In this document: positions 5,341-37,244 of the stretch, piece after piece
Numbering within the stretch: the first letter of the stretch is position 1
Layout of the letters: the number at the start of each line of letters is the position of its first letter
DNA from: a virus
Reading direction: 5' to 3' (one strand)
DNA: 51,778 nt
IMG/VR virus record: IMGVR_UViG_3300025767_000029
Location: 1 to 51,778 of that record
Position numbers and translations under genes: made by a program
The notes under the pieces: generated by a model
Told to the model about the DNA's origin: nothing
What the model saw: the letters and a program-made list of their open reading frames with translations, nothing else
Databases searched by the model: none

Positions 5341-5642
5341 TGTCATCCAGACAGCTTACCCGTGTCTACTTTCCTAACCCGCCTGCCGAATATCAGCAGG
5401 ATACGATTGCGGCTATTCAGGAAGCGTACGAGACCCTGATCCGCCAGATACAGAACCCGGGAGATGTGCGGGCTACCGACATTACGTTGACCAACTTGCA
5501 AAGTGGCAGTGATCAAGGTCTTGAGGTCGGAGCAGTATACGAGAAAGATGGGTTCTTAAAGATAGCTTTGGCCAATTCCCCGAATGCATTAGGCGTCTCT
5601 GGGACAGGTAGCGTAGGGTCTGTTACAGTTAACACACCTTAG
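5340..5642 (+). CDS. Small virion-associated protein, unknown function
   Basis: 100 residues, overlapping the preceding stop as TAATG. The N-terminal half is helical (AIQEAYETLIRQIQ), the C-terminal half is Gly/Ser/Val-rich and ends in SVGSVTVNTP. It contains no recognisable domain. Tight coupling to the upstream structural gene suggests a minor tail component. Confidence 0.6.
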   Translation: MSSRQLTRVYFPNPPAEYQQDTIAAIQEAYETLIRQIQNPGDVRATDITLTNLQSGSDQGLEVGAVYEKDGFLKIALANSPNALGVSGTGSVGSVTVNTP

Positions 5643-5717
5643 ATAAGATGCTGTAGAATAGTGCTTTAAGTACTGATAAAATCGGGCAGAGGCCCAGATT
5701 AATCAAGGAGCGACTCA

Positions 5718-11342: not shown

Positions 11343-11364
11343 ACTGAACAAGGAGATATAACTC

Positions 11365-14300
11365 GTGGCAAACGGTTTCCCAGATAAAATTCAGTTTGAC
11401 ATAAAAAGTGCGGTAGAGGCGGGTCTTAACGAAGAAGACATCGCTCGGCATGTATCTAATCGTAGAAGTTACGATTACGATGCTGCGCGCAAAGCCGGTC
11501 TTACCGATTCCGATATTATTTCCTACAACGTAGAAGGCGTAAGGGACATTAGTCGTTTGCGCGCGTTCCGTGATGAAGCCGGACTTACTTTAGGAACCAC
11601 GGGCATTGCTTCATACCAAGGATTTACAAAAGGGGCTAAGCTCGGCAGTAAACTCGGCGGTAAACTTTCCCCAAACCCTTGGGCACAGTTGATTGGCAGA
11701 GTAGGTGGGGCACTAATAGGCGGTGCCGTCGGTGCGATAGCAGGTGAGTTCGGAAAAGAAAAGATCAAAGAAGAGCTAGATATTGACGGACAATTAACGC
11801 CTTCGCGTCGTCCCTTCGAAGTTGCCGGTGAAACGTTTGGTTTTATAGGAGCAGGAACCGCTCCTTTTGTGGCTAAAGGACTCGCTAGAAAAGTCGGTTC
11901 TTCTGCGTTGGAAAGAGTAGCCCCGGGAATGGGTGCTCCCGGCACAGTTTCAAAACCTAATTTTGGCGCGGGAGAGTTTCTTGCGGCAGCGGGGGATAAC
12001 CCCGGAATGTCGGCGGCGGTAAACCGCGTCATGGGTAAAGGCTTGGGTAAAGCCGAAAGATTTTTCGGCAAAGCTGCCGAAGGTGCTATAAATCGTCCCC
12101 TTACTACTTTAGCATCGGAAACGGTTGCGGGAGTAGGCATATCCGCCGCAGGGGGGTTATCGGAAGCAGTTCTTCCCGGGGAATTAGCGTATCGCTTGGG
12201 AGCTGAATTGGCTGCGGGAGTTGCTAATCCGGTGTCTTTTATAGCCAACCGTGGCTCTCAATTGATAAAAAATGGAATTTCTTCTTCTAGACGCGGTAAT
12301 GACGCTGAATTAAACCGCGTAGCTAGGGCTTTGAATAAAGTAATAGATGACGCTCCGGAAGACCTGCGTCCTGATATTCAAAAGCTGATAGACGACTTAG
12401 TTTCCGATTTGCCGGAAGAAGAAAAAGTTATTTTTGGAAGAGCTAGAACTCAAGCGGCGGAACCTGAGTCTCAAGTTCCTTTGTATAACAGTGCGGAAAA
12501 AACAGGCAATGAGTTTTTGCGCGCTCTTCAAGAAGTTGTAATGCAGCGTGACCCAAAAGCCGCGGCTCTTATACTGAAACGTGCGCGAGAAGGTTCCGGC
12601 GCAATAAGCAAGATGATTGACGGATTAATGGATAGCATGGATCCTTCGGTCCTAGCCACTGCGTCTAAAATGCAAAACGATCAATTCACTAAGTCCCTAG
12701 AAGGTCTTCTTAATCAATACACCGTACGAGCCTTGGACCGCGCTTCACGGGTCGCGGCCACTACCGACGAAGAATACGCTGCCGCCGGTAATGCTATTTT
12801 TGATACCGTAAACACGGCGTTATCTAAAGCGCGTGAAATCGAGGGCCGTCTTTATGGCGAGGTAGACAAGACCATAGAGTTGGACGCGGGTAATATTCTT
12901 AAAGCTTATTTAGATGAGCTAAACCCACGTACTGGGGGTCTTCCAGAAAAGTCTTTAACCTTTGATCCGGTGGTTAGGCAGTTTATTAAGCGCATTGCTC
13001 CTGAAGTAAATGATGCTCAAATAGATCAAGTAGCCAAGCTGCAAGCTGAGATTGCGGAGATTGAGTCGTCTGCCTTACCTATCTTGGATCAAGTCGATGA
13101 AACAGGCAATAGGTTGCAGCTTGCCGTAGGTAGAGCACTGGGTAATGACGGAGACACGGTAAAAACTTTAAGAAATATTCAGACGCAGGATGATTTGATT
13201 AGATTGGAAGATGAGTTGCGCTCAATGCAGACGCAAGCTCGATCCGATGACGGACAAGTGGAGGGCTTGGCTAGAGAGAGCAGACCCGCACTGACCCGTC
13301 AGAAAAATGCGGCGTTAAAACTGGCTAAGAAAAGCTTGGCACTAAACACTACGCAAAAACGAATCATAGAAGCGGCAGATCAAGTACCCGATGCGGTTAA
13401 GGTAACTTCCGGAGACCTGATCGGTTTCCGTTCGCATGTTCTTAAGCTTGCTCGACAAAGTGCCGCAGATTCCAACAGAGCTTCTGATGCCGGGTTCTAT
13501 TCTAAACTAGCTAATGCGGCTGGCGAAGATCTTGGAACACGCAGTTTGGGCCGTATGACCCCGGAAGAAATTGCGGCTATGGACCCGGCTCAGCTAGATG
13601 CCATAAAGAATTTAGACGCGGCCTACTCTTTCTCCAAGTCGCTGAACGACGTATTTACCCGAGGATTCGGTGGGACGTTGTATGCCAAAAATGCAAAAGG
13701 CGGTAACCGTTTAATACCCGAGCTGGCCGGAGATAAGCTTCGCGCCACAACCGGTCTTCCTACATCGTTGAAAATGAAAGAGCTTGATGACGCGGTAGAC
13801 TTTGTTATTCGAGAGGCTCCTGAAGCCGAACGCGCAGAGTTAGAATCATTAAAAGGAACTATGCGAGGTGCGGAAGAAGTAGTCCTGCGTCGCCTCGCTC
13901 GTGACCGAAACATTGTTAATGCGACTACCGGTGAAGTTAACGTCAATGCGTTAAACACCTTTATGCGCAACCAAGGTGAGTTGCTTCAAACTCAATTCCC
14001 TAAGCTTTTTGAAGACCTCCAAGACGCGGCTAAAGCTCAAGTTATGCTTGCGGGTCTTAGAGAAAGACAAGCCGGAGCAAACACCAAGTTAGACGCCATT
14101 GGATCGTTTAAAACTTTCTTGGGTAAGGATGAATCTCCCTCCTTAGAAATAGATAGATTGCTTGGCGTACCCGGGCAATCTCCTAAACCAAACGCAATTA
14201 AGAACCTTGTAGGGATTATTAGGTTTGCTAACTCGGCCAAGAAACCTGAAGTGGTAGAGGGCCTTAAGCAGACCATTTATGACTCCGCATGGCGTCATGC

Positions 14301-15114
14301 TGGAGGCAATACAGAAGCCGGGGTCGACTTCGTTAAGCTGCGTAACTATTTAATGGGTCCTGTCTCTCGCGGAAATCAATCGGTATTAAACGTTCTTGAA
14401 AGCCGTGGAGTGGTATCGGCCGACGAAGTTAAGAACTGGACTTCTTTCTTTAACTCCGCGGAACGTTTTCAAAAAACGTTAGATAGCGGAGACATAGGCG
14501 CAATAGATAGAGAAGTTGTAGGTAATCCCTCTATGCTTAGCGGTTTAATAAGCCGAGTTATTGGTGCTAAGGGAACCGCAGCAATCACGAGAGCATTAGG
14601 AATGGGCGGAGGAGACATACAAACTCCTGCTGCGGGTGCGCGTTATTTTAATTCCCTAGTAAATAAATTACCGTATGGCCGTTCTTGGGACATCATAACT
14701 GAAGCTACCAAAAACCCTAAACAGATGGCGGATCTTCTTAGACGAACTAAGAATCAAAGAGAAGCTACGCAAGTATACGGTAGGTTAAAAAGTGTAATAA
14801 GGACCACTGGCGGTCGTGCGTTAACCGATTCTTTAGAGTTCTCTGATTACGAAGGAGAGCCTACCGCGCAGATGCAGCCAAGAGGAACTGACTTTGATCA
14901 GCCTATGCGGCGGCCGTTGGCTAGAGACCCAATTACCCTCGAGCAACGTCCTAAGCCACAGCCCACGCCCCAAGCACAAGCTAGACCGCAGCCTGCCCCA
15001 CGGCCCGCGGCTCCCGCCCCACAACCTGCTTCATCTTCAGCAGAAAGTAGGGCAAGATTTGCGCAGATGTATCCGTTTGATATAACTAGCGATGTAATCA
15101 GGAGTGGTGGTTAA
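11365..15114 (+). CDS. Largest internal virion protein (1249 residues)
   Basis: Starts at GTG behind an excellent RBS (AAGGAGAT at 11350-11357). The N-terminus repeats a short helix pair ending AGLNEEDI / AGLTDSDI, a motif also seen in the 780-residue protein next to terL. A Gly-rich hydrophobic stretch (residues about 105-130) and another near 240-290 could cross membranes. The rest is a long helical rod, and the tail is Pro/Gln-rich. Length and layout match the giant ejection protein (gp16-like) of podoviruses, but I see no transglycosylase motif. Its TAA shares bases with the stop of the opposing helicase gene. Confidence 0.65.
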   Translation: MANGFPDKIQFDIKSAVEAGLNEEDIARHVSNRRSYDYDAARKAGLTDSDIISYNVEGVRDISRLRAFRDEAGLTLGTTGIASYQGFTKGAKLGSKLGGKLSPNPWAQLIGRVGGALIGGAVGAIAGEFGKEKIKEELDIDGQLTPSRRPFEVAGETFGFIGAGTAPFVAKGLARKVGSSALERVAPGMGAPGTVSKPNFGAGEFLAAAGDNPGMSAAVNRVMGKGLGKAERFFGKAAEGAINRPLTTLASETVAGVGISAAGGLSEAVLPGELAYRLGAELAAGVANPVSFIANRGSQLIKNGISSSRRGNDAELNRVARALNKVIDDAPEDLRPDIQKLIDDLVSDLPEEEKVIFGRARTQAAEPESQVPLYNSAEKTGNEFLRALQEVVMQRDPKAAALILKRAREGSGAISKMIDGLMDSMDPSVLATASKMQNDQFTKSLEGLLNQYTVRALDRASRVAATTDEEYAAAGNAIFDTVNTALSKAREIEGRLYGEVDKTIELDAGNILKAYLDELNPRTGGLPEKSLTFDPVVRQFIKRIAPEVNDAQIDQVAKLQAEIAEIESSALPILDQVDETGNRLQLAVGRALGNDGDTVKTLRNIQTQDDLIRLEDELRSMQTQARSDDGQVEGLARESRPALTRQKNAALKLAKKSLALNTTQKRIIEAADQVPDAVKVTSGDLIGFRSHVLKLARQSAADSNRASDAGFYSKLANAAGEDLGTRSLGRMTPEEIAAMDPAQLDAIKNLDAAYSFSKSLNDVFTRGFGGTLYAKNAKGGNRLIPELAGDKLRATTGLPTSLKMKELDDAVDFVIREAPEAERAELESLKGTMRGAEEVVLRRLARDRNIVNATTGEVNVNALNTFMRNQGELLQTQFPKLFEDLQDAAKAQVMLAGLRERQAGANTKLDAIGSFKTFLGKDESPSLEIDRLLGVPGQSPKPNAIKNLVGIIRFANSAKKPEVVEGLKQTIYDSAWRHAGGNTEAGVDFVKLRNYLMGPVSRGNQSVLNVLESRGVVSADEVKNWTSFFNSAERFQKTLDSGDIGAIDREVVGNPSMLSGLISRVIGAKGTAAITRALGMGGGDIQTPAAGARYFNSLVNKLPYGRSWDIITEATKNPKQMADLLRRTKNQREATQVYGRLKSVIRTTGGRALTDSLEFSDYEGEPTAQMQPRGTDFDQPMRRPLARDPITLEQRPKPQPTPQAQARPQPAPRPAAPAPQPASSSAESRARFAQMYPFDITSDVIRSGG

Positions 15115-16583
15115 CGCAACCAGTCACCGAAATCTTCATTGAGAACGGTGCTGGCTATGTTAATTTTGCTTCGAAGGGCTTCTAATATCTTCTCGTCCGT
15201 CGTATTGGGTGACACAAGATCAATGTACGTAACTGATTTTGTTTGCCCGATACGGTGCGCACGATCTTCTGACTGTAACCGAATTTCTAAATCGTAAGAA
15301 TTAGAGTAGTAGACCATAGTGTCTGCGGCGGTCAGAGTAATACCGTACCCTCCCGTTCTAGGTTGTCCGACAAAAAAACGCAACTCTGATTCTTCATCTT
15401 GAAACCGAGTAACAATCTCCTGCCGTTCTTCCTGCGGCGTTTCGCCGTAGTATGTTGCGACTGCTTCGTCTCCGTAACGGTCGCGCAGGGCCTGAGCTAT
15501 CGCTTGGATATCGTGTGTCCACGTTGCCCAAATTATGGCCTTACCCTGTACTTCTTCGGCTATCTCCATCAAAGCAGAAAGCCTAGAATTCTTTAGTTCC
15601 TGTATCTCACCGTCATCCGTTCGAAGATGACCACAGACTATTTGCTGCAAGCGCATTAGCTGAGTAAGTATAGATGCCGTAGTTGCAAGCTCCCCATTAG
15701 TTACTTGAGCTAACGCCAATTCTTTCATTTGATTGTAGACAGAAACTTGCTCATCGGACAATTCTACCGTACGAGACATGTAGATTTTGTCCGGAAGATC
15801 CAGACAATCGCGCTTTAGTATGCGCGCACTAAAGGTTTCAAGCTTTTCACTAAGCTCGTCCAGACGCCTGTATCCGACAAGCTTTTGGAAGCTTCTGTGT
15901 CCCATGGTTCGCTTTTGCAATACCGCATAACGACTCTGGAAGGCATAGTAATTACTAAAGCCAAGTGCTTTACTGCTTAAGAAAGCGCACTGACTAAACA
16001 AGTCCATGGGCGACTTGGTAATAGGGCTTCCTGTCAGAATACGCCTGTATTTAGCGGCTCTGCCAAGATCTATAACAGTCTTGGTACGTTTTGCTGCCCG
16101 GTTCTTTATCGTAGTGCTTTCGTCTACGATGACCATATTGTCCGGGTTAAGCTCCAAATAACGAAGCGCAGACGCCGCACCTTTCTTCGTAGACAACGCT
16201 TCAATGTTCATAACCAAAATGTGCAACGAGTCGTCGTCTTCTTCCCTCAAAGCTAATTTAGTTATGTCTTCTGTAAACTTTTTAGTGAAGTTAGGCTGCC
16301 ATCGGACAATTAATGTTTTGATTCTTTCCGGCAAATGCACTGGGATTTCTTTCTGGAACCAGTTGTCATATACGCCTTTTGGCGCAATCACCAAAGCCGT
16401 GTTAATCTCTTTCTTCTCGAATAGATAGCCCATCGTGTCGATAGCTACTTTTGATTTGCCTGTACCCATTTCCATAAGCAAGGCGTAATAATTCTCTTCG
16501 CAAGATGTATCAAAGACTTCTTGCTGGTGCTTGTACGGCGTTGTTTTGAATGTATACATAGTAATCACAAAATTAGTTGACAT
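15111..16583 (-). CDS. SNF2-type DEAD-box helicase (SF2)
   Basis: 490 residues. Walker A MGTGKSK has Gly40-Thr41-Gly42-Lys43; the Q-region is YKHQ; motif II is VIVDEST; motif III RILTGSPITKSPMDLFS; motif VI LQSEDRAHRIGQTKSV. The last is the hallmark of SNF2 ATPases, which translocate on double-stranded DNA. It is the only minus-strand gene in the replication block and faces the 1249-residue virion gene. The first ATG has no Shine-Dalgarno; a second Met at residue 9 is an alternative start. A promoter lies right at the ATG, so the mRNA may be leaderless. Role in replication, repair or recombination is inferred. Confidence 0.93.
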   Translation of the reverse strand: MSTNFVITMYTFKTTPYKHQQEVFDTSCEENYYALLMEMGTGKSKVAIDTMGYLFEKKEINTALVIAPKGVYDNWFQKEIPVHLPERIKTLIVRWQPNFTKKFTEDITKLALREEDDDSLHILVMNIEALSTKKGAASALRYLELNPDNMVIVDESTTIKNRAAKRTKTVIDLGRAAKYRRILTGSPITKSPMDLFSQCAFLSSKALGFSNYYAFQSRYAVLQKRTMGHRSFQKLVGYRRLDELSEKLETFSARILKRDCLDLPDKIYMSRTVELSDEQVSVYNQMKELALAQVTNGELATTASILTQLMRLQQIVCGHLRTDDGEIQELKNSRLSALMEIAEEVQGKAIIWATWTHDIQAIAQALRDRYGDEAVATYYGETPQEERQEIVTRFQDEESELRFFVGQPRTGGYGITLTAADTMVYYSNSYDLEIRLQSEDRAHRIGQTKSVTYIDLVSPNTTDEKILEALRSKINIASTVLNEDFGDWLR

Positions 16584-16605
16584 GTAGGATTATATGCGAG
16601 AATAT
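16577..16605 (+). promoter_or_regulatory. Candidate promoter for the SSB-like operon
   Basis: A perfect TTGACA (16577-16582) overlaps the helicase start codon on the other strand. The best -10 at 17 bases is weak (GAATAT, 16600-16605). If used, it drives the two genes beginning at 16657 and would compete physically with the minus-strand promoter. Confidence 0.4.
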
Positions 16606-16617
16606 CTTACACCGCAA
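16589..16617 (-). promoter_or_regulatory. Sigma-70-like promoter for the SNF2 helicase
   Basis: On the minus strand TTGCGG (16617-16612), a 17-base spacer and a perfect TATAAT (16594-16589). Transcription would begin at or within a base or two of the helicase ATG at 16583, leaving almost no leader. Confidence 0.6.
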
Positions 16618-16656
16618 GGGCCTAAAAAGTCCTTTAACCACGAAAGGAGACTCATT

Positions 16657-17226
16657 ATGAGTAATTTGTTTGAAACTATGGAAGCCGATCAAGCCGCAGC
16701 TTCCAACGTAGAATCCCTCGATACAGGCGGCGTATCAAGCATTGCAGAGCTTGCAAGAGCTGTTCGCAATAAGCAGGACGAAGTCTTAAAACTTGAGGAC
16801 GCCCTTAAGCAAACTAAGAAAGACCTGCTAAAACTTACCGATGAAGACCTTCCTGCATTACTGCACGAAATAGGCGTTTCTAAGATGGAGCTAGATGATG
16901 GTTCCAAAGTAGAGCTTAAGCCTACCTACGGTGCATATATCAAGGTAGAAAACCGCGACAAAGCCTTTGGTTGGCTTAAAGAAAACGGCTATGACGACAT
17001 TATTAAAAATGTTGTTACTTGCCAGTTTGGTCGTGGCGAAGAAAGTCTCGCAGAAAATCTTGTAGAGATGACTACCAAGGCCGGATTCTCTCCGGAGCAG
17101 AAAAGAGATATCCATCCACAAACTCTTAAAGCGTTTGTGAGGGATCAGGTTGAATCGGGTAACGAGTTTCCCATGGATGTATTTGGGGCATATGTAGGTC
17201 AACGAGCTAATATTAAAAAGGGTTAA
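16657..17226 (+). CDS. Conserved protein upstream of SSB-like gene, unknown function
   Basis: 189 residues. The start at 16657 has a strong RBS (GAAAGGAG); the frame is open further up but without one. Residues 25-60 form a coiled coil (ARAVRNKQDEVLKLEDAL), followed by a compact alpha/beta part with DDGSKVELKP and a C-terminal helical domain. It reminds me of a protein often paired with the next gene in marine phages. The pairing, 5 bases apart, suggests a shared role in single-strand handling or replication, but no domain is recognised. Confidence 0.7.
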   Translation: MSNLFETMEADQAAASNVESLDTGGVSSIAELARAVRNKQDEVLKLEDALKQTKKDLLKLTDEDLPALLHEIGVSKMELDDGSKVELKPTYGAYIKVENRDKAFGWLKENGYDDIIKNVVTCQFGRGEESLAENLVEMTTKAGFSPEQKRDIHPQTLKAFVRDQVESGNEFPMDVFGAYVGQRANIKKG

Positions 17227-17231
17227 TCATT

Positions 17232-18044
17232 ATGACTAAAGAAGCAGCAGTAAAAGAAAACGCAGAAGTAACTGTAGCCGGTGCAGAAGCTCAAGCTACT
17301 ACTCAACTCACCGTAGTAGACATGAATATGTTCGAAGCGGACGCCGGTGTGGGCTTAGAAAACGTAGGACAAGACGATCTTGCTCTTCCGTTTCTTAAAG
17401 TTCTCAGCCGACAGGATCCTATTCTTGACGAGCTTGAAAATGCCAAGGCGGGTGATATATACAACACCGTCACTGGCGAAGTGTATAAAGGCAAAGAAGG
17501 CGTAAGCGTTATACCTTGCGCATATCAGCGCCGCTTCATAGAATGGATGCCCCGTGGCGCAGGTTCAGGCGCACCGGTAAATATTTATACCCCGGAAGAC
17601 AAGCGACCTGAGACAGAACGCAGCAAGGACGACAACCGGGAATACGTTAAGGGCGGTGACGGAAGCTATTTAGAGGAAACTCATCAGCATTTTGTTATTG
17701 TCTTAAACCCAGATGGCACTTCGCAGTTTGCACTTGTCGCAATGAAGTCAACACAGCTAAAGAAGTCCCGCAAGTGGAACTCTATGGTCCAAAGCAGAAG
17801 CATGATTGGTAAGAACGGTCCGTTTACGCCACCGCGTTTCAGTCACGTTTATACACTCAAGACTACTTCGGAAGAAAACTCGAAGGGTTCTTGGCACGGT
17901 TGGGAAATCAGCGTAGACAAAGTTGTCTCTGAGCCTTCCCTTTACGTGCAAGCCAAACAATTTGCTGAGAGCATTTTGAAGGGCGAAGTGAGCGTGAAAC
18001 ATACGGACGATGCCGCAGCAGAAAGCCAAGACATTCCTTGGTAG
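17232..18044 (+). CDS. SSB-like protein with DIPW C-terminal tail
   Basis: 270 residues. An acidic N-terminus is followed by a beta-rich middle (DIYNTVTGEVYKGKEGVSVI, FVIVLNPDGTSQFALVAMKS, GWEISVDK) that would suit an OB-like fold. The protein ends AAAESQDIPW. Bacterial SSB proteins end in an acidic stretch plus D-I-P-F, which binds host partner proteins; Trp replaces Phe here. Position directly before primase, helicase and polymerase supports ssDNA binding. The SSB fold itself is not proven by a motif, so this call rests on the tail, size and context. Confidence 0.55.
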   Translation: MTKEAAVKENAEVTVAGAEAQATTQLTVVDMNMFEADAGVGLENVGQDDLALPFLKVLSRQDPILDELENAKAGDIYNTVTGEVYKGKEGVSVIPCAYQRRFIEWMPRGAGSGAPVNIYTPEDKRPETERSKDDNREYVKGGDGSYLEETHQHFVIVLNPDGTSQFALVAMKSTQLKKSRKWNSMVQSRSMIGKNGPFTPPRFSHVYTLKTTSEENSKGSWHGWEISVDKVVSEPSLYVQAKQFAESILKGEVSVKHTDDAAAESQDIPW

Positions 18045-18051
18045 GGACTGA

Positions 18052-18076
18052 GGGGGCGTTCGCGCCCCCCTTTTTT
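18052..18076 (+). terminator. Rho-independent terminator between SSB-like gene and primase
   Basis: Perfect 7-bp stem GGGGGCG/CGCCCCC with a TTCG loop, followed by six T. It begins 8 bases after the SSB-like stop and ends 11 bases before the primase ATG, so any transcript crossing into the primase operon must read through it. Confidence 0.9.
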
Positions 18077-18087
18077 CGGGTGAAATA

Positions 18088-19632
18088 ATGTCAGATAACG
18101 CAAAGAAATTTGCGGGAATTTTCGACGGTCTACAACAGGCATACGGCACATATCGAATTGACCGCAAAGCACAGAATGGAAAGAACACCGGTAAAGCTAC
18201 GGTACTAAAGCAACCAAGAAACGACCAAACTTGGGAAGGACACCTCTCCGGCAAGGGTGATGCAATAGGCATCATACCTATAAACGAGGACAATAATTGT
18301 AAGTGGGGCTGCATCGACATAGATCAGTACCCGCTTGATCACCTAGAGCTAGTAGAAAAAATTAGACGGATGAAGATCCCGCTTGTTGTTTGCCGCAGCA
18401 AGTCTGGGGGTGCGCATTGCTTTCTATTTACTACCGACTGGGTCAGCGCTAAACAAATGCAAGATACCTTGCAGCACATCGCAGCCGAGATGGGCTACGG
18501 GGGTTGTGAGATATTTCCTAAGCAAATCAAGCTCTTCCTTGAGCGTGGTGACGTGGGTAACTTCCTGAACCTGCCGTACTACGATGCAGAGGAAGGGCTT
18601 CGCTACGTCATTAAAGATGATGGGCAGTCCGGTACGATCGAAGAATTCTTCGCGCTTCACGAAACATATGCGCAAGACCCGGAGCAGTTACAGTCACTGA
18701 CCGTAGCTAAAGAAGAAAGCAACATCATTGTAAAGGACGGACCTCCGTGCTTGCAGACGCTTTGCACTCAGAAAATTAGTGAGGGCGGACGCAACAATGG
18801 TTTGTTTAACGTAGGCGTTTACCTGCGTAAAGCGTTCCCAGATTCTTGGGAGTCCGAGATACTCGTGTACAACGCGCGTTACTTTGACCCGCCTCTTCCG
18901 CTGAACGAAGTTAACATTGTCGCGAAGCAGCTCGGGAAAAAAGATTACGCTTACAAATGTAAAGACGCGCCTATTTGCGATTACTGTAATGCGGACGTAT
19001 GCAAAACGCGTAAGTACGGCATTGAAGCGGCGGTATCCGGTGCGACTATTGCTAACCTGCGAAAGTACAACAGCACGCCTCCGGTCTGGTTCATGGACGT
19101 TAATGGTCAGCCTTTGGAAATGGATACAGAGGCTTTGATGAATCAATCTGCGTTTCAACGATCGTGTGTCGAGCAGCTAAACTTTATGCCGCGCAGTGTA
19201 AGCAAGCAGATGTGGGAAGGACGAATAAACCAGTTGTTGACTGAGATGTCGGAAACGGATGGCGCGATTGTTGAAGTGTCTCAAGACGCAAGCTTTGCCG
19301 GACAGTTCTATGACCATCTGGAAGAGTTCTGTACGGTCATGCAGCAAGCCGAAAACAAAGAAGAAATAATCTTGAGGCGTCCCTACACAGACGAGGAAGA
19401 GGAGCGTACGTATTTCCGCCTTAAAGACTTCACTGCATACCTGCACAAGAATCGTTTCTTTGAATACAAAGGACACAAGATTGCACAGCGTCTACGTGAC
19501 ATAAACGGTGAGTCTACTGTCATGAAGCTTGCGGGCAAGAGCGTCCGTGTCTGGGGTATACCCGCGTATGACGTTAGTCATACCGCGGTAAAAGCAAAGA
19601 ACATAGGTAGCGACAAAGAGGCGCCATTCTAA
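18088..19632 (+). CDS. Archaeo-eukaryotic-type primase (TOTE/PrimPol-like)
   Basis: 514 residues. Motif I is WGCIDIDQ (Asp77, Asp79), motif II SKSGGAHCFLF (Ser106, His110), and GNFLNLPYY follows near residue 158, the order seen in AEP primase-polymerases. A C-terminal half holds a helical domain (GGRNNGLFNVGVYLRKAF) and a cysteine cluster C291-x5-C297-x2-C300-x4-C305 able to bind Zn or an Fe-S cluster. The final residues SDKEAPF look like a weak SSB-type tail. It would make primers at the fork. TAATG coupling to the next helicase supports a replication operon. No ATPase domain is fused. Confidence 0.85.
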   Translation: MSDNAKKFAGIFDGLQQAYGTYRIDRKAQNGKNTGKATVLKQPRNDQTWEGHLSGKGDAIGIIPINEDNNCKWGCIDIDQYPLDHLELVEKIRRMKIPLVVCRSKSGGAHCFLFTTDWVSAKQMQDTLQHIAAEMGYGGCEIFPKQIKLFLERGDVGNFLNLPYYDAEEGLRYVIKDDGQSGTIEEFFALHETYAQDPEQLQSLTVAKEESNIIVKDGPPCLQTLCTQKISEGGRNNGLFNVGVYLRKAFPDSWESEILVYNARYFDPPLPLNEVNIVAKQLGKKDYAYKCKDAPICDYCNADVCKTRKYGIEAAVSGATIANLRKYNSTPPVWFMDVNGQPLEMDTEALMNQSAFQRSCVEQLNFMPRSVSKQMWEGRINQLLTEMSETDGAIVEVSQDASFAGQFYDHLEEFCTVMQQAENKEEIILRRPYTDEEEERTYFRLKDFTAYLHKNRFFEYKGHKIAQRLRDINGESTVMKLAGKSVRVWGIPAYDVSHTAVKAKNIGSDKEAPF

Positions 19633-27123: not shown

Positions 27124-27654
27124 TCACGGTTCAGGGGTAGTTTTGCTGTCAAAATGCGCATGAATGTTCTTTATCCACCACAGGAACATGTCCTGACCTA
27201 ACGTGTGCTTCATGGTATTTACCCGAGCCGCGACTAACTGTACGTTTTCCCGTACGTAAGGCCCGTTGGGATTTATGCGGTCTATAGAGGCGTTGAATTC
27301 TTTTGGCTTTTTGTCGCCGTAGGTGCCGTCTCTTTGATGCGTCATGAGGACGCCAGAAAGCGCGCACTTGCCGTTTTGAGCATCCCAGAGATCTATTACC
27401 TCTTCGTTAGTTAAATCGTACTGGATGCCCTGTCTGATCCGCTGAGATTTTAACTGCGTGTTTAAGACTCGGATGTAGGCTTCAGGGGTAGCCGAGGTTT
27501 TCTTTGATCTTTGGAGGGTCACACAGTTCCGACAGACGCCCCGTACCTGCCCCTCTTTAAAAGTCTCGAACTGGGACAGCATCTTAACTTTGTTGCAGGA
27601 AGTGCATAATCGGGAGCCTTGCGACTCGGGCTTTACTTTAGGTTGTCTTGGCAT
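27124..27654 (-). CDS. HNH endonuclease with zinc-knuckle N-terminus
   Basis: 176 residues from ATG 27654. CTSCNK and CRNC form an N-terminal zinc finger; a middle helical part follows; then GKCALSGVLMTH and NASIDRINPNGPYVRENVQLV, the beta-beta-alpha HNH core. Asp-Arg stands where the first His-Asn usually would, as in several free-standing phage endonucleases. No Shine-Dalgarno precedes it, and the T-run of a minus-strand terminator ends four bases upstream. Probably a mobile homing endonuclease inserted here. Confidence 0.85.
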   Translation of the reverse strand: MPRQPKVKPESQGSRLCTSCNKVKMLSQFETFKEGQVRGVCRNCVTLQRSKKTSATPEAYIRVLNTQLKSQRIRQGIQYDLTNEEVIDLWDAQNGKCALSGVLMTHQRDGTYGDKKPKEFNASIDRINPNGPYVRENVQLVAARVNTMKHTLGQDMFLWWIKNIHAHFDSKTTPEP

Positions 27655-27658
27655 AGGC

Positions 27659-27705
27659 AAAAAAAACCCGCGGGAGCAAAGTGTGGGAGAGCGCTCAACC
27701 GCGGG
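27659..27705 (-). terminator. Minus-strand terminator directly upstream of the HNH gene
   Basis: On the minus strand CCCGCGG (27705-27699) pairs with CCGCGGG (27673-27667) across a 25-base loop that holds an inner GAGC/GCTC stem; eight T follow (27666-27659). It ends transcription of the two small genes upstream. Confidence 0.8.
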
Positions 27706-28611: not shown

Positions 28612-28643
28612 GTTCACGCAAATTAACTGCTTTGGAGAAAAGC

Positions 28644-29285
28644 GTGACTAAAGACCGATATATCGTCCCTGCGGGTGATAGAAAGAAAAGAGGGCGCCCA
28701 CCCAAGACTATGGAACAACGTGCCGCTAACAAGCTCACACGGCGTCAGGAGTTGTTTGTGAAGGAGCTTGTGTCCAAGGATGGTCAGGTGACTATGAAGG
28801 AGGCTGCGATCAATGCGGGCTATCCTGAAAAGTCTGCTAGTAGCCGGGCATATGAATTAACTAATCCCAAACTATCTCCTCACGTTTGTAGGGCTATCCA
28901 AGAGTATCGAAGGGAGTTGGACTCTAAATACGGTATTGACTACCAGAGGCACGTCAGAGATCTTCAGCGCATTCGGGATATGGCTTTGTCTGATAAAGCT
29001 TATTCGGCAGCCGTAATGGCAGAATATCGCCGCGGTCAGGCTCAAGGCGATATCTATGTCTCCAAGTCTGAAATCAGGCACGGTACTATTGAGTCTATGT
29101 CTAAAGAAGAAGTCATGAAGGCTTTGAAAGAGATTAAGGAGCAATATGAACCAGTCACCTATTCCGTGGGAGGACAGTCCGAAGAAGACGACGAAAAGAC
29201 TCAGCGGAAAAAAACAAGAGAGCGCATTTTGGAAGTCCTTCCGGAACCAAGCGAAGAAGCACCGGCCGAACTGGCTGCTGACTAG
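28644..29285 (+). CDS. terS: Terminase small subunit
   Basis: 213 residues from GTG 28644 (GGAG six bases before; TTG 28632 is the other option). After a basic AT-hook-like KKRGRPPK near residue 14-21, LTRRQELFVKEL...TMKEAAINAGYP.KSASSRAYEL is the classic terminase small-subunit HTH. A helical oligomerisation region follows (HVRDLQRIRDMALSDKAYSAAV) and an acidic tail. It recognises the packaging site and hands DNA to the large subunit, whose gene is 6.5 kb away. The last 140 bases overlap the next gene. Confidence 0.88.
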   Translation: MTKDRYIVPAGDRKKRGRPPKTMEQRAANKLTRRQELFVKELVSKDGQVTMKEAAINAGYPEKSASSRAYELTNPKLSPHVCRAIQEYRRELDSKYGIDYQRHVRDLQRIRDMALSDKAYSAAVMAEYRRGQAQGDIYVSKSEIRHGTIESMSKEEVMKALKEIKEQYEPVTYSVGGQSEEDDEKTQRKKTRERILEVLPEPSEEAPAELAAD

Positions 29286-31182: not shown

Positions 31183-31210
31183 AAGGCCGCTATTGTACGC
31201 GGCCTTTTTT
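31183..31210 (+). terminator. Terminator of the small-gene operon
   Basis: AAGGCCGC-TATTGTAC-GCGGCCTT, 8-bp perfect stem then T-run. The same stem sequence is reused by the terminators at 33666, 34292 and 34848. Confidence 0.9.
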
Positions 31211-31497: not shown

Positions 31498-31712
31498 TGA
31501 AAGCAAACGATTTTATTCTCAATTGCATTATGCGGCCTATTCGCCGCCATGGCGTCAATACCGATGCGTTTATCGTCTATACAGATAAACAATCGCCAAT
31601 CGGCACGTATGATCCGGCCGATGTGGAATTTAAACCGGTTGATAATTGGCCGATTACCTTTTCTAAAAAATTAATCCAATCTGTATTCGAAGGGAGTGAT
31701 TCCAATGCTTAA
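31497..31712 (+). CDS. Accessory cassette protein, unknown function
   Basis: 71 residues, TAATG-coupled with GAGGAGG upstream. Beta-rich core with DPADVEFKPVDNWPI. No known domain. Confidence 0.6.
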   Translation: MKANDFILNCIMRPIRRHGVNTDAFIVYTDKQSPIGTYDPADVEFKPVDNWPITFSKKLIQSVFEGSDSNA

Positions 31713-32412
31713 AACAGTAATCTTTAGCAGCGCTAAAAAGACCGGCGGATGCGCGGTCACCTACCGATCCGGCCGCGGCGATCTTTATTCTACGTGCCCA
31801 AATACGTGCGCATTAAAACCGGCCGGTAACAGCGGCGCGGAATTTGTAGATTTGGATTATTTGGATGCCTTAGTGGATGCGGTGCCGGATGATGGCGCGG
31901 CCTTTACTTATACGCATTTTGAACCGGCGCATTGGATCGATCGATGTAAACCAAATGGAACCGTTATAAACTTTTCCGGCGATACGGTTTCCGATGCAAT
32001 TGAAGCGCGCAATAAATATGGCGTGCCCGCGACCGCGGTAGTCGATCGCAAGTATTGGAACGGCGACAAATCTAGACGCGAGGCCGATACCTTGATTGTT
32101 AGATGTCCGGCGGAATTAAGGCCGGATTCGATCACGTGTCGCAATTGCGGCGGCGGCAAACCATTATGCGCTAGACGCGATCGCGATTACGTTATCGGAT
32201 TCACCGCGCATGGTAGCGGCGCGACTAAGGCCGAAAGGCCAAATGAATCCGGCGGATGCTATGCCGGTCATGGCCACGTGGCTATACACTGGCGTGCTAC
32301 CTCTAATGCTACCGCGGCGGCGGATGATTCTGCGCAATTGCGCTCGTTTGTTAAATCATTACCGGCCGGCACCATATTGCGCCATCACGTGGCCGGCGAT
32401 ATAGGGGCATAA
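31705..32412 (+). CDS. DUF7227-like cysteine-rich protein
   Basis: 235 residues from ATG 31705 (AGGGAG upstream). GGCAVTYRSG...STCPNTCALKP near the N-terminus, CRNCGGGKPLC in the middle, and GGCYAGHGHVAIHW near residue 190 give three Cys/Gly clusters in the order I recall for a phage/plasmid family of unknown function (DUF7227). The cysteines suggest metal or Fe-S binding. Codon choice leans to GCG, CGC and GAT, unlike the virion genes. Overlaps the previous gene by 8 bases. Confidence 0.6.
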   Translation: MLKTVIFSSAKKTGGCAVTYRSGRGDLYSTCPNTCALKPAGNSGAEFVDLDYLDALVDAVPDDGAAFTYTHFEPAHWIDRCKPNGTVINFSGDTVSDAIEARNKYGVPATAVVDRKYWNGDKSRREADTLIVRCPAELRPDSITCRNCGGGKPLCARRDRDYVIGFTAHGSGATKAERPNESGGCYAGHGHVAIHWRATSNATAAADDSAQLRSFVKSLPAGTILRHHVAGDIGA

Positions 32413-32480: not shown

Positions 32481-32519
32481 GATCTGTAATTTTATTAAAT
32501 TTATATAGGAATCATGATC

Positions 32520-33647
32520 ATGCAAATTGAAAATAGCTCAAACACTCTTACTCAATTACTCGAAACCGTTCGCGAGCAAGCTTCTAGAAGCGCGGATTAT
32601 CTAGCGCCTACCGATGCGTTACAGTTTAGAACGCGCGACACCGGCGGTGAGCATAAAACGTCTAGCATTATTCTAGAGGCTAATCGCGGCGAACCTACTC
32701 GCGAATTACGCGTTAACGATGTCGCCTTCGACCAAATATCTGCTAAGGCCGGAATAGACGTTCGAACGGCGCGCCGATTGCGCGACAATTACAGTAATGA
32801 GTTCGAAGGATTGGTTAACGCTATATGGCAGCGCGAACCTAGCACGCGGATGATTCGAAGCTTTATGGATGACGAAAGGAATGGAGTCGCGCGCGCGTTT
32901 GTTTCTGATAAGTTTAAAACGTTTGATAACGCGCATTTATTAAACGCGGCATTACCTCAACTGATGGAGTCTAGCGCGGGATGGCAAGTGGTTAATGGAA
33001 CGGTTACCGATCGCCGGTTATACCTCCGACTGAAATCTACTCAATACACTGGCGATGGTGCGGCAGTAGGCGATGCGATGGCGCTAGGCATAGGGTTATC
33101 GAATAGTGAAGTAGGCCATGGTTCGATTAGCGTTTACCAAATGATATGGACACTGGCCTGTTTGAACGGAATGCAAACAGAGAACCGTCACCGCAGCTCG
33201 CATATCACTAGCGCGCGTGCGGAGTCTGACACGTGGGGATTACTAACAGATGAGGCCAAGGATGCCGACAATAATGCGCTTAGTCTTAAGGTTCGCGACC
33301 TTGTTTCCGCGTACGGTTCGCGGGAGGGATTAGATAACGTGCTAGATAAGATGCGCGCGGCGGCCGGCGATATTGTCACCGGTTCGGCGCAATCTGCTAC
33401 AGAAGCGCTTGGATCGGTGTTGAAATTAACTAAGGCCGACACTAGTCGCGTGCTAGACGGTTTACTGGCAACGATCGGGCAGGCCGGTTATGCCGGCAAT
33501 CCAGTATCACGCGCGACAATGGTTAACGCGGTGACCGCGGCGGCGCATTCGGTAGATGCCGATAGCGTGGACGATTGGCAGAAATTAGGCGGCCGCGTGC
33601 TAGATCTACCGCGCGCCGATTGGCAACGGATCGCCTTAGCGGCCTAG
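32520..33647 (+). CDS. DUF932-like phage/plasmid protein
   Basis: 375 residues from ATG 32520 (AGGA nine bases upstream; ATG 32514 also possible). It reads as the DUF932 family known from phages and plasmids: helical N-terminal region, then GVARAFVSDKFKTFDNAHLL, then a beta section with DRRLYLRLKS and GLSNSEVGHGSISVYQMIWTLACLNGM. The function of the family is not established. It ends in a helical region. Neighbouring DUF7227-like gene and similar codon use suggest they travel together. Confidence 0.75.
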   Translation: MQIENSSNTLTQLLETVREQASRSADYLAPTDALQFRTRDTGGEHKTSSIILEANRGEPTRELRVNDVAFDQISAKAGIDVRTARRLRDNYSNEFEGLVNAIWQREPSTRMIRSFMDDERNGVARAFVSDKFKTFDNAHLLNAALPQLMESSAGWQVVNGTVTDRRLYLRLKSTQYTGDGAAVGDAMALGIGLSNSEVGHGSISVYQMIWTLACLNGMQTENRHRSSHITSARAESDTWGLLTDEAKDADNNALSLKVRDLVSAYGSREGLDNVLDKMRAAAGDIVTGSAQSATEALGSVLKLTKADTSRVLDGLLATIGQAGYAGNPVSRATMVNAVTAAAHSVDADSVDDWQKLGGRVLDLPRADWQRIALAA

Positions 33648-33771
33648 TGTTAACAGCTCGCAATCAAGGCCGCCGCGTGCGGCCTTTTTTGTATCTATTT
33701 ACTTTTCACATAATAAGCCGATACAATCTACGCAAGCCCGCGATTGGCGCGGCATTTTAAGGGATAGAACC
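33648..33771 (+). repeat. Intercassette spacer A: terminator plus promoter plus leader hairpin
   Basis: Contains, in order, TAACAGCTCGCAAT, terminator stem AAGGCCGC/GCGGCCTT (33666-33690), TTTACT-N18-TACAAT promoter (33698-33727), leader hairpin CCGCG-ATTGG-CGCGG (33738-33752) and RBS. Nearly the same spacer recurs at 34273-34399. Confidence 0.85.
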
Positions 33772-34272
33772 ATGTCACAGATTGAAGAAATTATTGTTGA
33801 ATTAATCGAAAGCCGAATTGCCGACTATGATTTCGGCCGAATTGTAGATGACGCCATCAGTTATAATGATGACGTGCAAGGGCATGAGAGCCGAATAGAT
33901 GACCTCGAAAATATCGATGTTGAATCGACTCTCACTGAATTCGGCGACCGAATAGATGAGCTTGCATCTTATAACGATCATGGCGCCATGCAATTAATGG
34001 TGGCAAACGTTGCCGAAATCACGCGCCGTTTAAACGAACTCGAAACCCGCAACGATACGGCCGCGGCCGATAATCCGCCGGCTAATCAGATTGATTTAAT
34101 CATGCCGCGTAATCCTATGGTGCTAGGCTATGATTCGATGGATCATCTTCGCGAGTATGTTAGCGCGACACTGGCGGGAACCGGCCAGTCTGAAGCGCTA
34201 TTGCTTGAAATGGTATTCGCGACAGCTCGAAGAATAATCGATATAGAGTTGGGAACTGATAACAAGCTTTAA
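33772..34272 (+). CDS. Cassette protein with coiled-coil, unknown function
   Basis: 166 residues, start behind AAGGGATAGAACC. Acidic helical N-terminal half with heptad-like spacing (ESRIDDLENIDVE...EITRRLNELETR) and a C-terminal helical domain. Flanked by the two near-identical spacers, so it looks like a replaceable one-gene unit. Confidence 0.65.
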   Translation: MSQIEEIIVELIESRIADYDFGRIVDDAISYNDDVQGHESRIDDLENIDVESTLTEFGDRIDELASYNDHGAMQLMVANVAEITRRLNELETRNDTAAADNPPANQIDLIMPRNPMVLGYDSMDHLREYVSATLAGTGQSEALLLEMVFATARRIIDIELGTDNKL

Positions 34273-34399
34273 TCGCTAACAGATCGCAATCAAGGCCGCC
34301 GCGTGCGGCCTTTTTTGTACCGGTTTACTTTTTACATATTATGCCGATACAATACTGGCAAGCCCGCGATTGGCGCGGCATTTAAAAGGAATCTAGACC
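34273..34399 (+). repeat. Intercassette spacer B: near-copy of spacer A
   Basis: CTAACAGATCGCAAT, terminator stem (34292-34316), TTTACT-N18-TACAAT (34324-34353), hairpin CCGCG-ATTGG-CGCGG (34364-34378), AGGAATC RBS. By eye most positions match spacer A across about 120 bases. Confidence 0.85.
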
Positions 34400-34828
34400 A
34401 TGTCAGATAATCAATTTTATTCAGTGTTAGATGAATTCGACAAGCTGTTCGCGGTATGCCCGCCGCGATCGTGCGCGCAGAAGCGCTACTATCGCGCGGT
34501 GCCCGATGGTGAGATCGTCACGCCACTGGATAACGGTGAGCCGGTTTATCACCATCCTTTAAGCGCAATCGCGGTATTTTATAAGAGCCCGACCAATACG
34601 CTAGGTGTCCGCTATTCGGTCGTTATGTCCGGCCAGCGCCGCCGATATTATGATCGCGACTATTCGCTAGACCATGGCGCCGATGCCTTCCGCGTAGCTA
34701 TTCAGTATGCGCGCGACTGCGGCCTTGGCGATCTAATCGAATCGAATAACGTAACACTGGGTGCGCTGCCTAACAGTTCTGATTATGTTCTGACTATTGG
34801 CGGATCTAAAACACATTTCGCCATGTAG
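34400..34828 (+). CDS. Cassette protein, unknown function
   Basis: 142 residues. A basic-aromatic middle (RRRYYDRDYSLDHGADAF) and LPNSSDYVLTIGGSKTHF at the end; no domain recognised. It follows spacer B and is closed by the third copy of the shared terminator. Confidence 0.65.
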   Translation: MSDNQFYSVLDEFDKLFAVCPPRSCAQKRYYRAVPDGEIVTPLDNGEPVYHHPLSAIAVFYKSPTNTLGVRYSVVMSGQRRRYYDRDYSLDHGADAFRVAIQYARDCGLGDLIESNNVTLGALPNSSDYVLTIGGSKTHFAM

Positions 34829-34847
34829 TCGCTAACAGCTCGCAATT

Positions 34848-34875
34848 AAGGCCGCCTGATCGCGGCCTTTTTTTT
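34848..34875 (+). terminator. Terminator closing the cassette array
   Basis: AAGGCCGC-CTGATC-GCGGCCTT and eight T, preceded by the shared CTAACAGCTCGCAAT. No promoter repeat follows, so the array ends here. Confidence 0.9.
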
Positions 34876-35369
34876 GCCCGTCATATATGCCGGCCGCGGC
34901 CGGCCGGTCGTGAAGCGTATCGTACGGCGCGAGAATCGCGGCCAGTTGAGCGCGGCGCGTGAACTGGGCACCAGTGCCCCAGTTGTACGTTAAAATTTTC
35001 ACTTCCACCGGCTCGCGGCCGCCGATCCACTAGATATTGTGCTAGGGAATCGACTAGACCCAGGGCAAAATCCGGACACGCCGCGTATTTACTGGCCTGT
35101 AGCGGTGCCGAATCGACAAAAAAACCGGCCGGTTTCCGCGACCACTAGATATTGTGTTTTAGTCACCGGATCGTGAAGCGCGGTCACTGGATCGCGACAA
35201 CTGGCGCATTAATCGCGGCCGCGGCGCGCGAACTGGCGCGCCAGTAGCGCGGAAAATCGCCTAGGATCCCTAGGCCAATCGAGGCTAATCGCGCAGAAAA
35301 TGCAAGATCAGTCGTGCGCGAACCGCGAGGCGCGCCCCCTCCCCCCGGAGCGCGTGCTTGTGCAGGTTT
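34876..35369. other. GC-rich non-coding block dense in palindromes and short repeats
   Basis: About 490 bases without a credible ORF. It has GGCCGGCC, GCGGCCGC twice, GGCGCGCC and CCTAGG; a hairpin AACTGGGCAC/GTGCC(C)CAGTT (34962-34984); a 14-base direct repeat CACTAGATATTGTG (near 35030 and 35141); GTGAAGCG near 34911 and 35172; and two related GCGGCGCG(T/C)GAACTGG units (about 34952 and 35219). Composition matches the cassette genes on its left, not the virion genes on its right. Could be decayed cassettes or a recombination or packaging site. Confidence 0.7.
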
Positions 35370-35397
35370 TTGACAAACAATGACCATAAAATATAAT
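35370..35397 (+). promoter_or_regulatory. Perfect consensus sigma-70 promoter for the morphogenesis operon
   Basis: TTGACA (35370-35375), 16-base spacer, TATAAT (35392-35397). Followed by a 130-base AT-rich leader with further TATAAT at 35446-35451 lacking a proper -35. First gene downstream is at 35534, then terL. Confidence 0.85.
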
Positions 35398-35533: not shown

Positions 35534-35791
35534 ATGGATGATTTTCCTGAAATTTTACTAGCGGATGGCTTTGACAAAGCCTTTATCGGAATAGGCTCGC
35601 GGGCCGGGGACGAAGATGTTGCGGTCTATGACCTCGAAAAGTGTGTCAATATCTTGGTAAACTCCGGTATGACCCACGAAGAAGCTGCTGAATACATTGA
35701 TTACAACGTCCTTGGTGCGTATGTGGGACCCCGGACGCCACTCTTTCTTGACCCGATGGACATAGACGATGTCAGACCACCTGCCAAGTAA
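35534..35791 (+). CDS. Conserved small protein preceding terL
   Basis: 85 residues. ILLADGFDKAFIGIGSRAG...VYDLEKCVNIL...YIDYNVLGAYVGPRTPLFL has the order of a common phage protein found just ahead of terminase large subunits; its role is not known. It overlaps terL by 23 bases. Placing it here marks the left edge of the conserved morphogenesis module. Confidence 0.7.
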   Translation: MDDFPEILLADGFDKAFIGIGSRAGDEDVAVYDLEKCVNILVNSGMTHEEAAEYIDYNVLGAYVGPRTPLFLDPMDIDDVRPPAK

Positions 35792-37244
35792 CCTTGAAGA
35801 TGCCGATGAGCGCCGTTTAAAGCTAGAACTTCGTTTAGCGCAGCTAGAGCGTGTTGAGCATTGCCAGACTAGCTTTCTGACTTTTGTAAAATCCCTCTGG
35901 CCCGAGTTCATTGCGGGAAAGCATCACAAGATTATTGCCGAGAAGCTTGAAGCGGTGGCCAATGGCAAGCTGAAGCGCTTGATTGTCAACATGCCGCCTC
36001 GTCACACCAAGAGCGAATTCGCCAGTTTCTTGTTTCCGGCATGGATGGTCGGAAGGAACCCTGCGATGAAGATCATTCAGGCTACGCACACCACGGAGCT
36101 TGCGGTTGGTTTTGGCAGAAAGGTTAAGAATCTTATTGAGAGAGAGGATTATGCTGAAATTTTCCCGGAATCTAAGTTGGCGGCGGACTCTAAGGCAAGT
36201 GGTCGATGGGATACTTCTCGCGGTGGCATGTATTATGCTGTTGGGGTTGGTAGTAACCTCGCTGGTCGCGGCGCTGATTTATGTATTATTGACGACCCGC
36301 ACTCTGAGCAGACCGCTATGTCTAACTCTGGATTCGATGACGCGTGGGACTGGTACACGGGCGGACCAAGACAGCGTCTCCAGCCGGGAGGGGCAATAGT
36401 TCTGGTCATGACACGCTGGTCGGAAAAAGATTTGACGGGGCAGTTGGTGCGTCAGATGGCAAAGGATCCTTTGGCGGACCAGTGGGAAGTAGTAGAGTTT
36501 CCCATGGAGCTACCTTCTGGAGAACCTGTTTGGCCGGAATATTGGTCTCCGGATGATCTAACCGCGGTAAAGGCGTCTATTCCTCCGAGCAAGTGGAATG
36601 CGCAGTATCAGCAGCAGCCTACGGGCGACACGAACGCAATCTTGAAGCGTGAGTGGTGGAAAGTTTGGGATGAGCCTAAGATTCCTCGTTTGGAGTATGT
36701 TATCCAAAGTTACGATACCGCGTTTAGTAAACGGGAGACAGCGGACTACAGTGCGATAACGACGTGGGGTGTTTTCTATCCTGACGAGGGTCCCCAGCCT
36801 AATTTGATTTTGTTGGAGTCTAAGAAGGGTCGCTGGGATTTTCCGGAGCTTAAGGCGATGGCTTTGGAGCAGTATAAGTATTGGGACCCCGAAACGGTTA
36901 TAATCGAGGCGAAAGCTTCTGGGACCCCGTTGACACAAGAGTTGCGCAATATGGGAATCCCTGTGGTAAACTTTACGCCGTCCCGTGGCAATGATAAGGT
37001 AACTAGGGTGCATTCTATCGCTCCTCTTTTGGAAGCGGGAATGATATGGGTGCCGGACGAGCAATGGGCACAAGAATTAATCGAAGAGTGTGCTGCGTTT
37101 CCGTATGGGGAACACGACGACTTGGTAGACAGTACCACTCAAGCACTGATGCGTTATCGTCAAGGTAACTTTGTACAGTTGCCTACTGACGATTGGGAAC
37201 AAGACGAAGACCCGGCACATGTCCGGGCCGCGTATTATGGTTGA
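35769..37244 (+). CDS. terL: Terminase large subunit
   Basis: 491 residues. The ATPase has an atypical Walker A (MPPRHTKSEFAS, near residue 76), Walker B LCIIDDPH near residue 175 and the coupling motif MTRWSEKDLTG; the RNase H-like nuclease has SYDTAFSKRETADYSA, VIIEAKASGTPL and HDDLVDS as its acidic residues. It pumps DNA into the prohead and cuts it. The small subunit lies 6.5 kb upstream across the accessory island. Confidence 0.97.
   Translation: MSDHLPSNLEDADERRLKLELRLAQLERVEHCQTSFLTFVKSLWPEFIAGKHHKIIAEKLEAVANGKLKRLIVNMPPRHTKSEFASFLFPAWMVGRNPAMKIIQATHTTELAVGFGRKVKNLIEREDYAEIFPESKLAADSKASGRWDTSRGGMYYAVGVGSNLAGRGADLCIIDDPHSEQTAMSNSGFDDAWDWYTGGPRQRLQPGGAIVLVMTRWSEKDLTGQLVRQMAKDPLADQWEVVEFPMELPSGEPVWPEYWSPDDLTAVKASIPPSKWNAQYQQQPTGDTNAILKREWWKVWDEPKIPRLEYVIQSYDTAFSKRETADYSAITTWGVFYPDEGPQPNLILLESKKGRWDFPELKAMALEQYKYWDPETVIIEAKASGTPLTQELRNMGIPVVNFTPSRGNDKVTRVHSIAPLLEAGMIWVPDEQWAQELIEECAAFPYGEHDDLVDSTTQALMRYRQGNFVQLPTDDWEQDEDPAHVRAAYYG

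Follow-up and report, generated by a model that had tools for sequence, protein, structure and literature searches.

Repeated terminator-promoter spacers seem to act as integrase-free gene-exchange joints in uncultivated, mostly aquatic phages

The window analysed here is the whole of an uncultivated virus record, 51,778 bases long (W in comparisons with relatives), whose large terminase shares 61-64% identity with its counterparts in pelagiphage HTVC027P, phage 023Pt_psg01 and phage DSL-LC04. Between its small and large terminase genes lie a DUF7227 gene, a DUF932-like gene and two small genes, ORF1 and ORF2 (Table 1), for which AlphaFold models were too poor for use (mean pLDDT 44 and 50, respectively). 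The DUF932-like gene and ORF1 are each followed by a composite spacer, A and B, in which the same parts recur in the same order.

Table 1. Features between and including the terminase genes of the window (positions count from the first base of the window; promoter-like elements and terminators are predicted).
Feature	Position	Strand	Description
Terminase small subunit gene	28632-29285	+	Pfam Terminase_2; left border of variable block
Fourth, diverged AAGGCCGC...GCGGCCTT terminator	31183-31210	+	Upstream of DUF7227 gene; weak BLAST match to third copy
DUF7227 gene	31696-32412	+	A relative of this gene stands behind a spacer downstream of DUF932 in L079-L088
DUF932-like gene	32514-33647	+	phrog_1362; Pfam DUF932 below cut-off
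Spacer A	33648-33771	+	Box, terminator, promoter-like element, leader hairpin, RBS
Box of spacer A	33650-33665	+	GTTAACAGCTCGCAAT (sequence); directly 3' of DUF932-like gene
Intrinsic terminator, spacer A	33666-33690	+	AAGGCCGC-CGCGT-GCGGCCTT plus T tract; fold z -3.2
Promoter-like element, spacer A	33698-33727	+	TTTACT-N18-TACAAT; predicted, consensus match only
Leader hairpin, spacer A	33738-33752	+	CCGCG-ATTGG-CGCGG (sequence); equivalent hairpin covaries in distant relatives
ORF1	33772-34272	+	166 aa, family C9/F31; unit absent in L012/L013/L019
Spacer B, second copy	34273-34399	+	88.6% identical to spacer A over 114 nt
Box of spacer B	34276-34290	+	CTAACAGATCGCAAT (sequence)
Intrinsic terminator, spacer B	34292-34316	+	Fold z -3.25
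Promoter-like element, spacer B	34324-34353	+	TTTACT-N18-TACAAT; predicted, consensus match only
Leader hairpin, spacer B	34364-34378	+	CCGCG-ATTGG-CGCGG (sequence); equivalent hairpin covaries in distant relatives
ORF2	34400-34828	+	142 aa, family C6/F22
Third box plus terminator	34829-34875	+	Closes array; without promoter copy behind
Terminase large subunit gene	35769-37244	+	Right border of variable block

An earlier note on this DNA had described spacers A and B as direct repeats 625 nt apart; the distance is correct and every element that it named lies where it had been placed, except that the box of spacer A reads GTTAACAG and not CTAACAG. Aligned base by base, as the note had proposed, the two spacers match without gaps over their 114 nt (E about 2.5e-38). 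The global score of 85 lies far above both the scores of 1000 dinucleotide shuffles of spacer B (mean -16.7, sd 5.3, maximum 2.5) and the maximum of 4 reached by 127-nt stretches sampled every 20 bases across the rest of the genome. A scan confirmed the TTTACT-18-TACAAT pairs as well as the terminators at 33666, 34292 and 34848, the last of which belongs to a 41-nt box and terminator copy behind ORF2 (34829-34873) that is 88% identical to spacer A. The scan thus recovers the three terminators listed in the note; a fourth, at 31183-31206, had been missed, and the accessory block may begin there. That these stem-loops terminate transcription is predicted from their sequence. The TTTACT/TACAAT pair matches the consensus at 9 of 12 positions, a degree of match that is expected by chance in the region. 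The leader hairpin, taken in the window alone, is of ordinary stability (z about -0.2), and its support comes from covariation of the equivalent hairpin in relatives. An Rfam scan gave sub-threshold matches only (Trp_leader at the terminators and one STnc50).

The DUF932-like gene of the window recurs at 95-100% identity in nine contigs, and these, apart from L020, which is cut off, show three layouts. The order A-ORF1-B-ORF2 is found in W, L007 and L016/L017; L012, L013 and L019 have a single spacer and lack ORF1; and L018 and L022, with one spacer upstream, lack spacer B, so that ORF1 and ORF2 overlap by a few bases. The single spacer of L012, L013 and L019 is a hybrid. At the terminator it is A-type, sharing 91-93% identity with spacer A of W and L017 and 84% with B, and at the RBS end it is B-type, with 84% identity to B compared with 70-71% to A; in L012 its centre resembles spacer A of L018. 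Deletion of a unit between the repeats, which the earlier note had predicted, is thus found in relatives. Since L007, with both spacers, is the outgroup on the large-terminase tree (rooted by midpoint; L020 is oddly placed on the DUF932 tree), the loss of ORF1 and the loss of spacer B look derived from the two-spacer layout, which is the simplest reading. Spacer B of L007 has B-type ends around an A-type centre (95% identity with spacer A of the same contig, 85-86% with B spacers elsewhere), as expected of gene conversion. ORF1 of W clusters with that of L007 (100/100), contrary to the terminase tree, and this conflict implies that the C-terminal part of ORF1 has been exchanged; the left border of this exchange between W- and L017-like phages lies within the gene and not in spacer A.

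Contigs whose DUF932-like gene is 63-72% identical to that of the window contain many repeats in the same region when compared with themselves. With a spacer profile built from 13 seeds, we found 192 spacer copies in 61 loci, up to 7 per contig, among the best 80 of 408 DUF932 relatives, in which all array-bearing relatives are metagenome contigs. These spacers consist of a GC-rich terminator with a T8 tract, TATGCGATA, a leader hairpin, a CTTTGGGAG RBS and a start codon, which stands at an almost fixed distance behind 189 of them. The promoter-like element is found behind the terminator at nearly every junction; in L101, TATGCGATA occurs 9 times in 20 kb against 0.08 expected, always on the coding strand, and is absent from the neighbouring 20 kb. 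In the leader stem 99.4% of cells are paired, C-G has changed to G-C in 17 of 69 sequences, and none of 500 shuffles reached its covariation score. The terminator stem is present in all 69 distinct spacers, with arms that change in step and compensating ends (stems were counted sequence by sequence; the MAFFT alignment shifts the 3' arm by one base). Such compensatory changes show selection on the RNA.

The diverged spacers of the wider clade and those of the window share one plan of terminator, promoter-like element, leader hairpin and RBS. As the 13-seed profile does not match the window clade's own spacers at E 1e-3, the kinship of the two types rests on this order of parts and on short similar stretches. 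A near-identity search for the spacers among cultured phages gave no match, and the stretches examined of HTVC027P, HTVC023P, 023Pt_psg01 and DSL-LC04 contain no such repeat family at E 1e-6. In 84,980 bacterial and archaeal genomes the exact spacer pattern gave three isolated matches (two in Flavobacterium and one in a Lokiarchaeal MAG), which stand without related phage genes and were judged to be chance.

Among the same best 80 of 408 relatives, 18 gene families start behind a spacer, the two of the window clade included, and their order varies, bearing out the expectation that different genes would be found behind the same spacers. Family C1, for example, stands before C0 in most contigs; it follows both C0 and C11 in L103 and C11 in L099, is found at both positions in L110, and lies upstream of DUF932 in L079-L088. 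The C1, C13 and C17 units are present in some relatives and absent from others, and the first unit behind DUF932 has changed at least 14 times on the DUF932 tree. The DUF932-like gene itself, which has spacers on its flanks in many relatives, is replaced in L119, L149, L159 and L160, where the slot of the 377-aa protein holds a distinct DUF932 protein of 293-303 aa (Pfam E 1.5e-20 in L160). Pfam and PHROGs identify C0 as GP88 and leave most cargo families without an assigned function. In the transcriptome of HTVC027P, gp30, gp33 and gp34 show an unusual early expression; these genes are located between the terminase genes or adjoin the small one, and the early genes of that phage are all of unknown function (PMC12753301). 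By analogy with this early expression, we infer that the units behind the spacers may be early, host-directed accessory genes.

Gains and losses of genes coincide with the spacers. Counted pairwise among contigs from the best 80 of 408 relatives, and hence not as independent events, clean indels of at least 150 bp number 254. Of these, 67 are bounded by spacers on either side, compared with 0.40 +/- 0.80 (maximum 8 in 1000) under rotation of the spacer positions. This is far above the null and agrees with the homologous gain, loss and swap of genes between spacers that the earlier note had envisaged. The 67 indels cover several units (ORF1, C1, C5+C1, C13, C17 and others), and most have tens of bases of alignment overlap; the other 187 are not spacer-bounded on both sides. 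We also observed a recurring insertion of about 169-205 bp directly 3' of the DUF932 stop (L108, L054, L099, L103, L110, L043 and others), which is not spacer-bounded and whose small gene (F20/F101) separates DUF932 from its terminator.

The two halves of the spacer have separate histories. For the promoter-leader half, the nearest spacers have the same downstream gene 105 times in 128 and the same upstream gene 12 times in 109; for the terminator half, they have the same upstream gene 47 times in 109, where permutation maxima for such sharing are 24-28%. Thus, the promoter half goes with the downstream gene and the terminator half with the upstream one. The spacers that separate DUF932 from C0 are mosaics, resembling DUF932|C1 spacers on the left and C1|C0 spacers on the right, with log-likelihood gains of 63-90 for the clear hybrids. 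Their breakpoints lie in the T tract (L026, L027 and L107), just behind TATGCGATAGT (L035 and L044) or, weakly supported, later in the spacer (L025 and L042). The class behind TATGCGATAGT could instead reflect crossing over in the T tract, the partner being a variant spacer. We count at least two breakpoint zones and probably three. The cleanest case of a switch within a spacer is the pair L027 and L031, whose sequences agree at every base for 1.4 kb, across the DUF932-like gene, the terminator and the T tract, and then differ in promoter, leader and gene.

We consider it highly likely that the block between the terminase genes is a variable region of autonomous units exchanged by homologous or annealing recombination at shared spacers. 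In the model we propose, a unit would begin with a promoter, leader hairpin and RBS, continue with one small gene or occasionally two, and end in an intrinsic terminator, so that a composite terminator-promoter spacer of about 100-127 nt would join consecutive units. Such a spacer, nearly alike at every junction, would provide shared homology: crossover between two spacers of one genome would delete a unit and leave a hybrid spacer, and crossover between spacers of co-infecting phages would insert, replace or reorder units with frames and regulation intact. As the exchange would fall within the regulatory repeat, each gene would keep its promoter and terminator. The repeat family, the unit-wise gain, loss and reordering, the breakpoints within spacers, the hybrid spacers and the separate histories of the spacer halves are all observed; the promoters are predicted to work, and the crossing over is presumably carried out by general or phage-coded annealing recombination. 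Variable crossover points, together with the lack of Phage_integrase and Resolvase domains in four genomes (the window genome and three large relatives), argue for homologous or annealing rather than integron-type recombination. The interpretation put forward in the earlier note is therefore supported and largely holds. Its autonomous single-gene units do each have a promoter-like element, but some units hold two genes and L018 and L022 have lost spacer B, so a strict rule of one gene per unit does not hold for the array. Its integron-style array without an integrase stands in that no tyrosine or serine recombinase was found, and the likeness is an analogy only, as the crossover points are not fixed.

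How much of this reflects recombination as such can be weighed against another account, in which the spacers are alike only through shared needs of regulation and the exchange of units is a by-product of any recombination plus selection for intact transcription units. We give this account somewhat less than an even chance. Conservation of the promoter-like element, the leader stem and the terminator, with compensatory changes in both stems, would be expected under it, and indels away from the spacers occur too; the mosaic spacers and the alignment overlap at indels, however, show that the repeats are crossover sites. The account is compatible with crossover in the repeats; the disagreement concerns the reason for the length and likeness of the spacers. 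A stronger reading, which we offer tentatively and regard as rather unlikely, is that the spacers are partly maintained as recombination joints and form an integrase-free cassette system, in which the terminator half would stay with the upstream gene, the promoter-leader half would travel with the cargo, and the near-identical middle would allow any two members of the clade to exchange single early genes without harm.

Homing endonucleases or other mobile elements might instead move the units, the repeats merely marking past insertions. HNH genes are present in pelagiphage relatives and one window protein (27124-27660, minus strand) looks endonuclease-like by eye, but that protein has no Pfam match and the spacer-borne families put through Pfam and PHROGs scans yielded no endonuclease, so we hold this very improbable. 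Equally slim is the chance that the missing units and hybrid spacers are artefacts of short-read assembly, which can collapse direct repeats. The relatives are indeed all metagenome contigs, and the end of L013 (4605-4764) is a second copy, 98.8% identical, of a 160-bp stretch from the DUF7227 region, probably through an assembly fault; yet the three ORF1-less contigs have spacer bases of their own rather than a mix of A and B from W or L017, collapse cannot yield changes of gene order or different genes, and the pattern recurs in many contigs. A site-specific recombinase acting on the spacer, with hairpins serving like the attC sites of an integron, would suit an array in which repeats with hairpins stand on both sides of single genes, but it is largely refuted and hardly credible given the lack of integrase and resolvase domains in the four genomes, the crossover points that differ among hybrids, and a promoter-like element in every unit.

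The exchange at spacers that we favour has its nearest described counterpart in the PeSL (promoter-stem-loop) elements of T4-like phages: the principle is the same, the phages are other ones and the element is longer. PeSL shuffling in T4-like phages was reportedly described by Arbiol et al. in 2010 and Comeau et al. in 2014. According to one account, these promoter-terminator motifs mediate modular shuffling, the composite elements are repeated between small accessory genes, and regions dense in them vary in gene content, the elements being thought to serve as homology (PMC4503421). Here too, a terminator stem-loop and a predicted promoter occur in many copies, and modules are exchanged at the motif in a hyperplastic location. 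The spacer thus works like a PeSL, yet we do not class it as one: PeSLs belong to T4-like myovirus genomes, whereas the terminase of the window is near those of pelagiphages HTVC027P and HTVC023P, and in place of a T4-type early promoter there is TATGCGATA or the TTTACT-18-TACAAT pair. The present spacers further differ in being long composites with a covarying leader hairpin and RBS, in forming arrays of up to 7 copies, and in the direct evidence for crossing over within it.

Morons of lambdoid phages are autonomous accessory genes with their own promoter and terminator, placed between phage genes, and are usually single, without a shared repeated spacer. The ORF1 unit, with its predicted promoter and terminator and its absence from some relatives, resembles a moron, as do the variable C1, C13 and C17 units, but here many units share one spacer. 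Integrons likewise have single genes head to tail beside a repeated hairpin-bearing element, with varying content and order. They use the tyrosine recombinase IntI, a fixed crossover point and mostly promoterless cassettes under one promoter, whereas we found no PF00589 match in G000-G003, at least two breakpoint zones and a predicted promoter at nearly every junction. The SAS/ESAS elements of Cluster K mycobacteriophages are also repeated ahead of many different small genes and, in the part of the source available, are described as conserved across subclusters, the ESAS having inverted repeats; the 13-bp SAS and the 17-bp inverted repeats were proposed to act in translation initiation (PMC3203893). 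The same part describes neither a terminator-promoter unit nor unit-wise exchange (PMC3203893). The SAS is of the GGGATAGGAGCCC type and lies just before the start codon, and the spacer RBS (CTTTGGGAG or AAGGGATAGAACC) differs from it by eye. In a survey of HTVC023P-type pelagiphages the words promoter and terminator are absent.

Spacers of this kind seem to act as integrase-free gene-exchange joints, and they provide direct evidence, in environmental phages unrelated to T4, that repeated terminator-promoter spacers are sites of accessory gene gain, loss and swap. The pattern CGGGN-T8-G...TATGCGATA offers a sequence handle by which the exchangeable genes of these phages, which probably act early, could be found, and it becomes possible to test at base resolution how phages can shuffle genes while expression stays intact.

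Other arrangements were seen in the same part of related genomes. Between its terminase genes, HTVC023P (11000-18800; L166) has seven single genes with gaps of 83-417 nt and only weak short repeats, AACTAACAAAGCGAG-like, before some starts. L090 contains at 4397-6800 a different array, in which five similar GTATGCGATGGATGTGTGGTA...GGAGCTAGAACGATG promoter-RBS repeats precede different genes, one of them a weak relative of ORF1 (E 2e-8). In the window, a perfect sigma-70 consensus, TTGACA-16-TATAAT (12/12), is found at 35370-35397 upstream of the small gene preceding the large terminase. Ahead of it, 34880-35350 comprises about 450 bases without a convincing gene and with many palindromes (e.g. 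GGCCGCGGCC, CGCG, GATC and CTAG); the equivalent region is variable in relatives and carries short tandem motifs, CCCGGGGATCTG in L007 and CACTGGATCGCG-like in L012 and L018.
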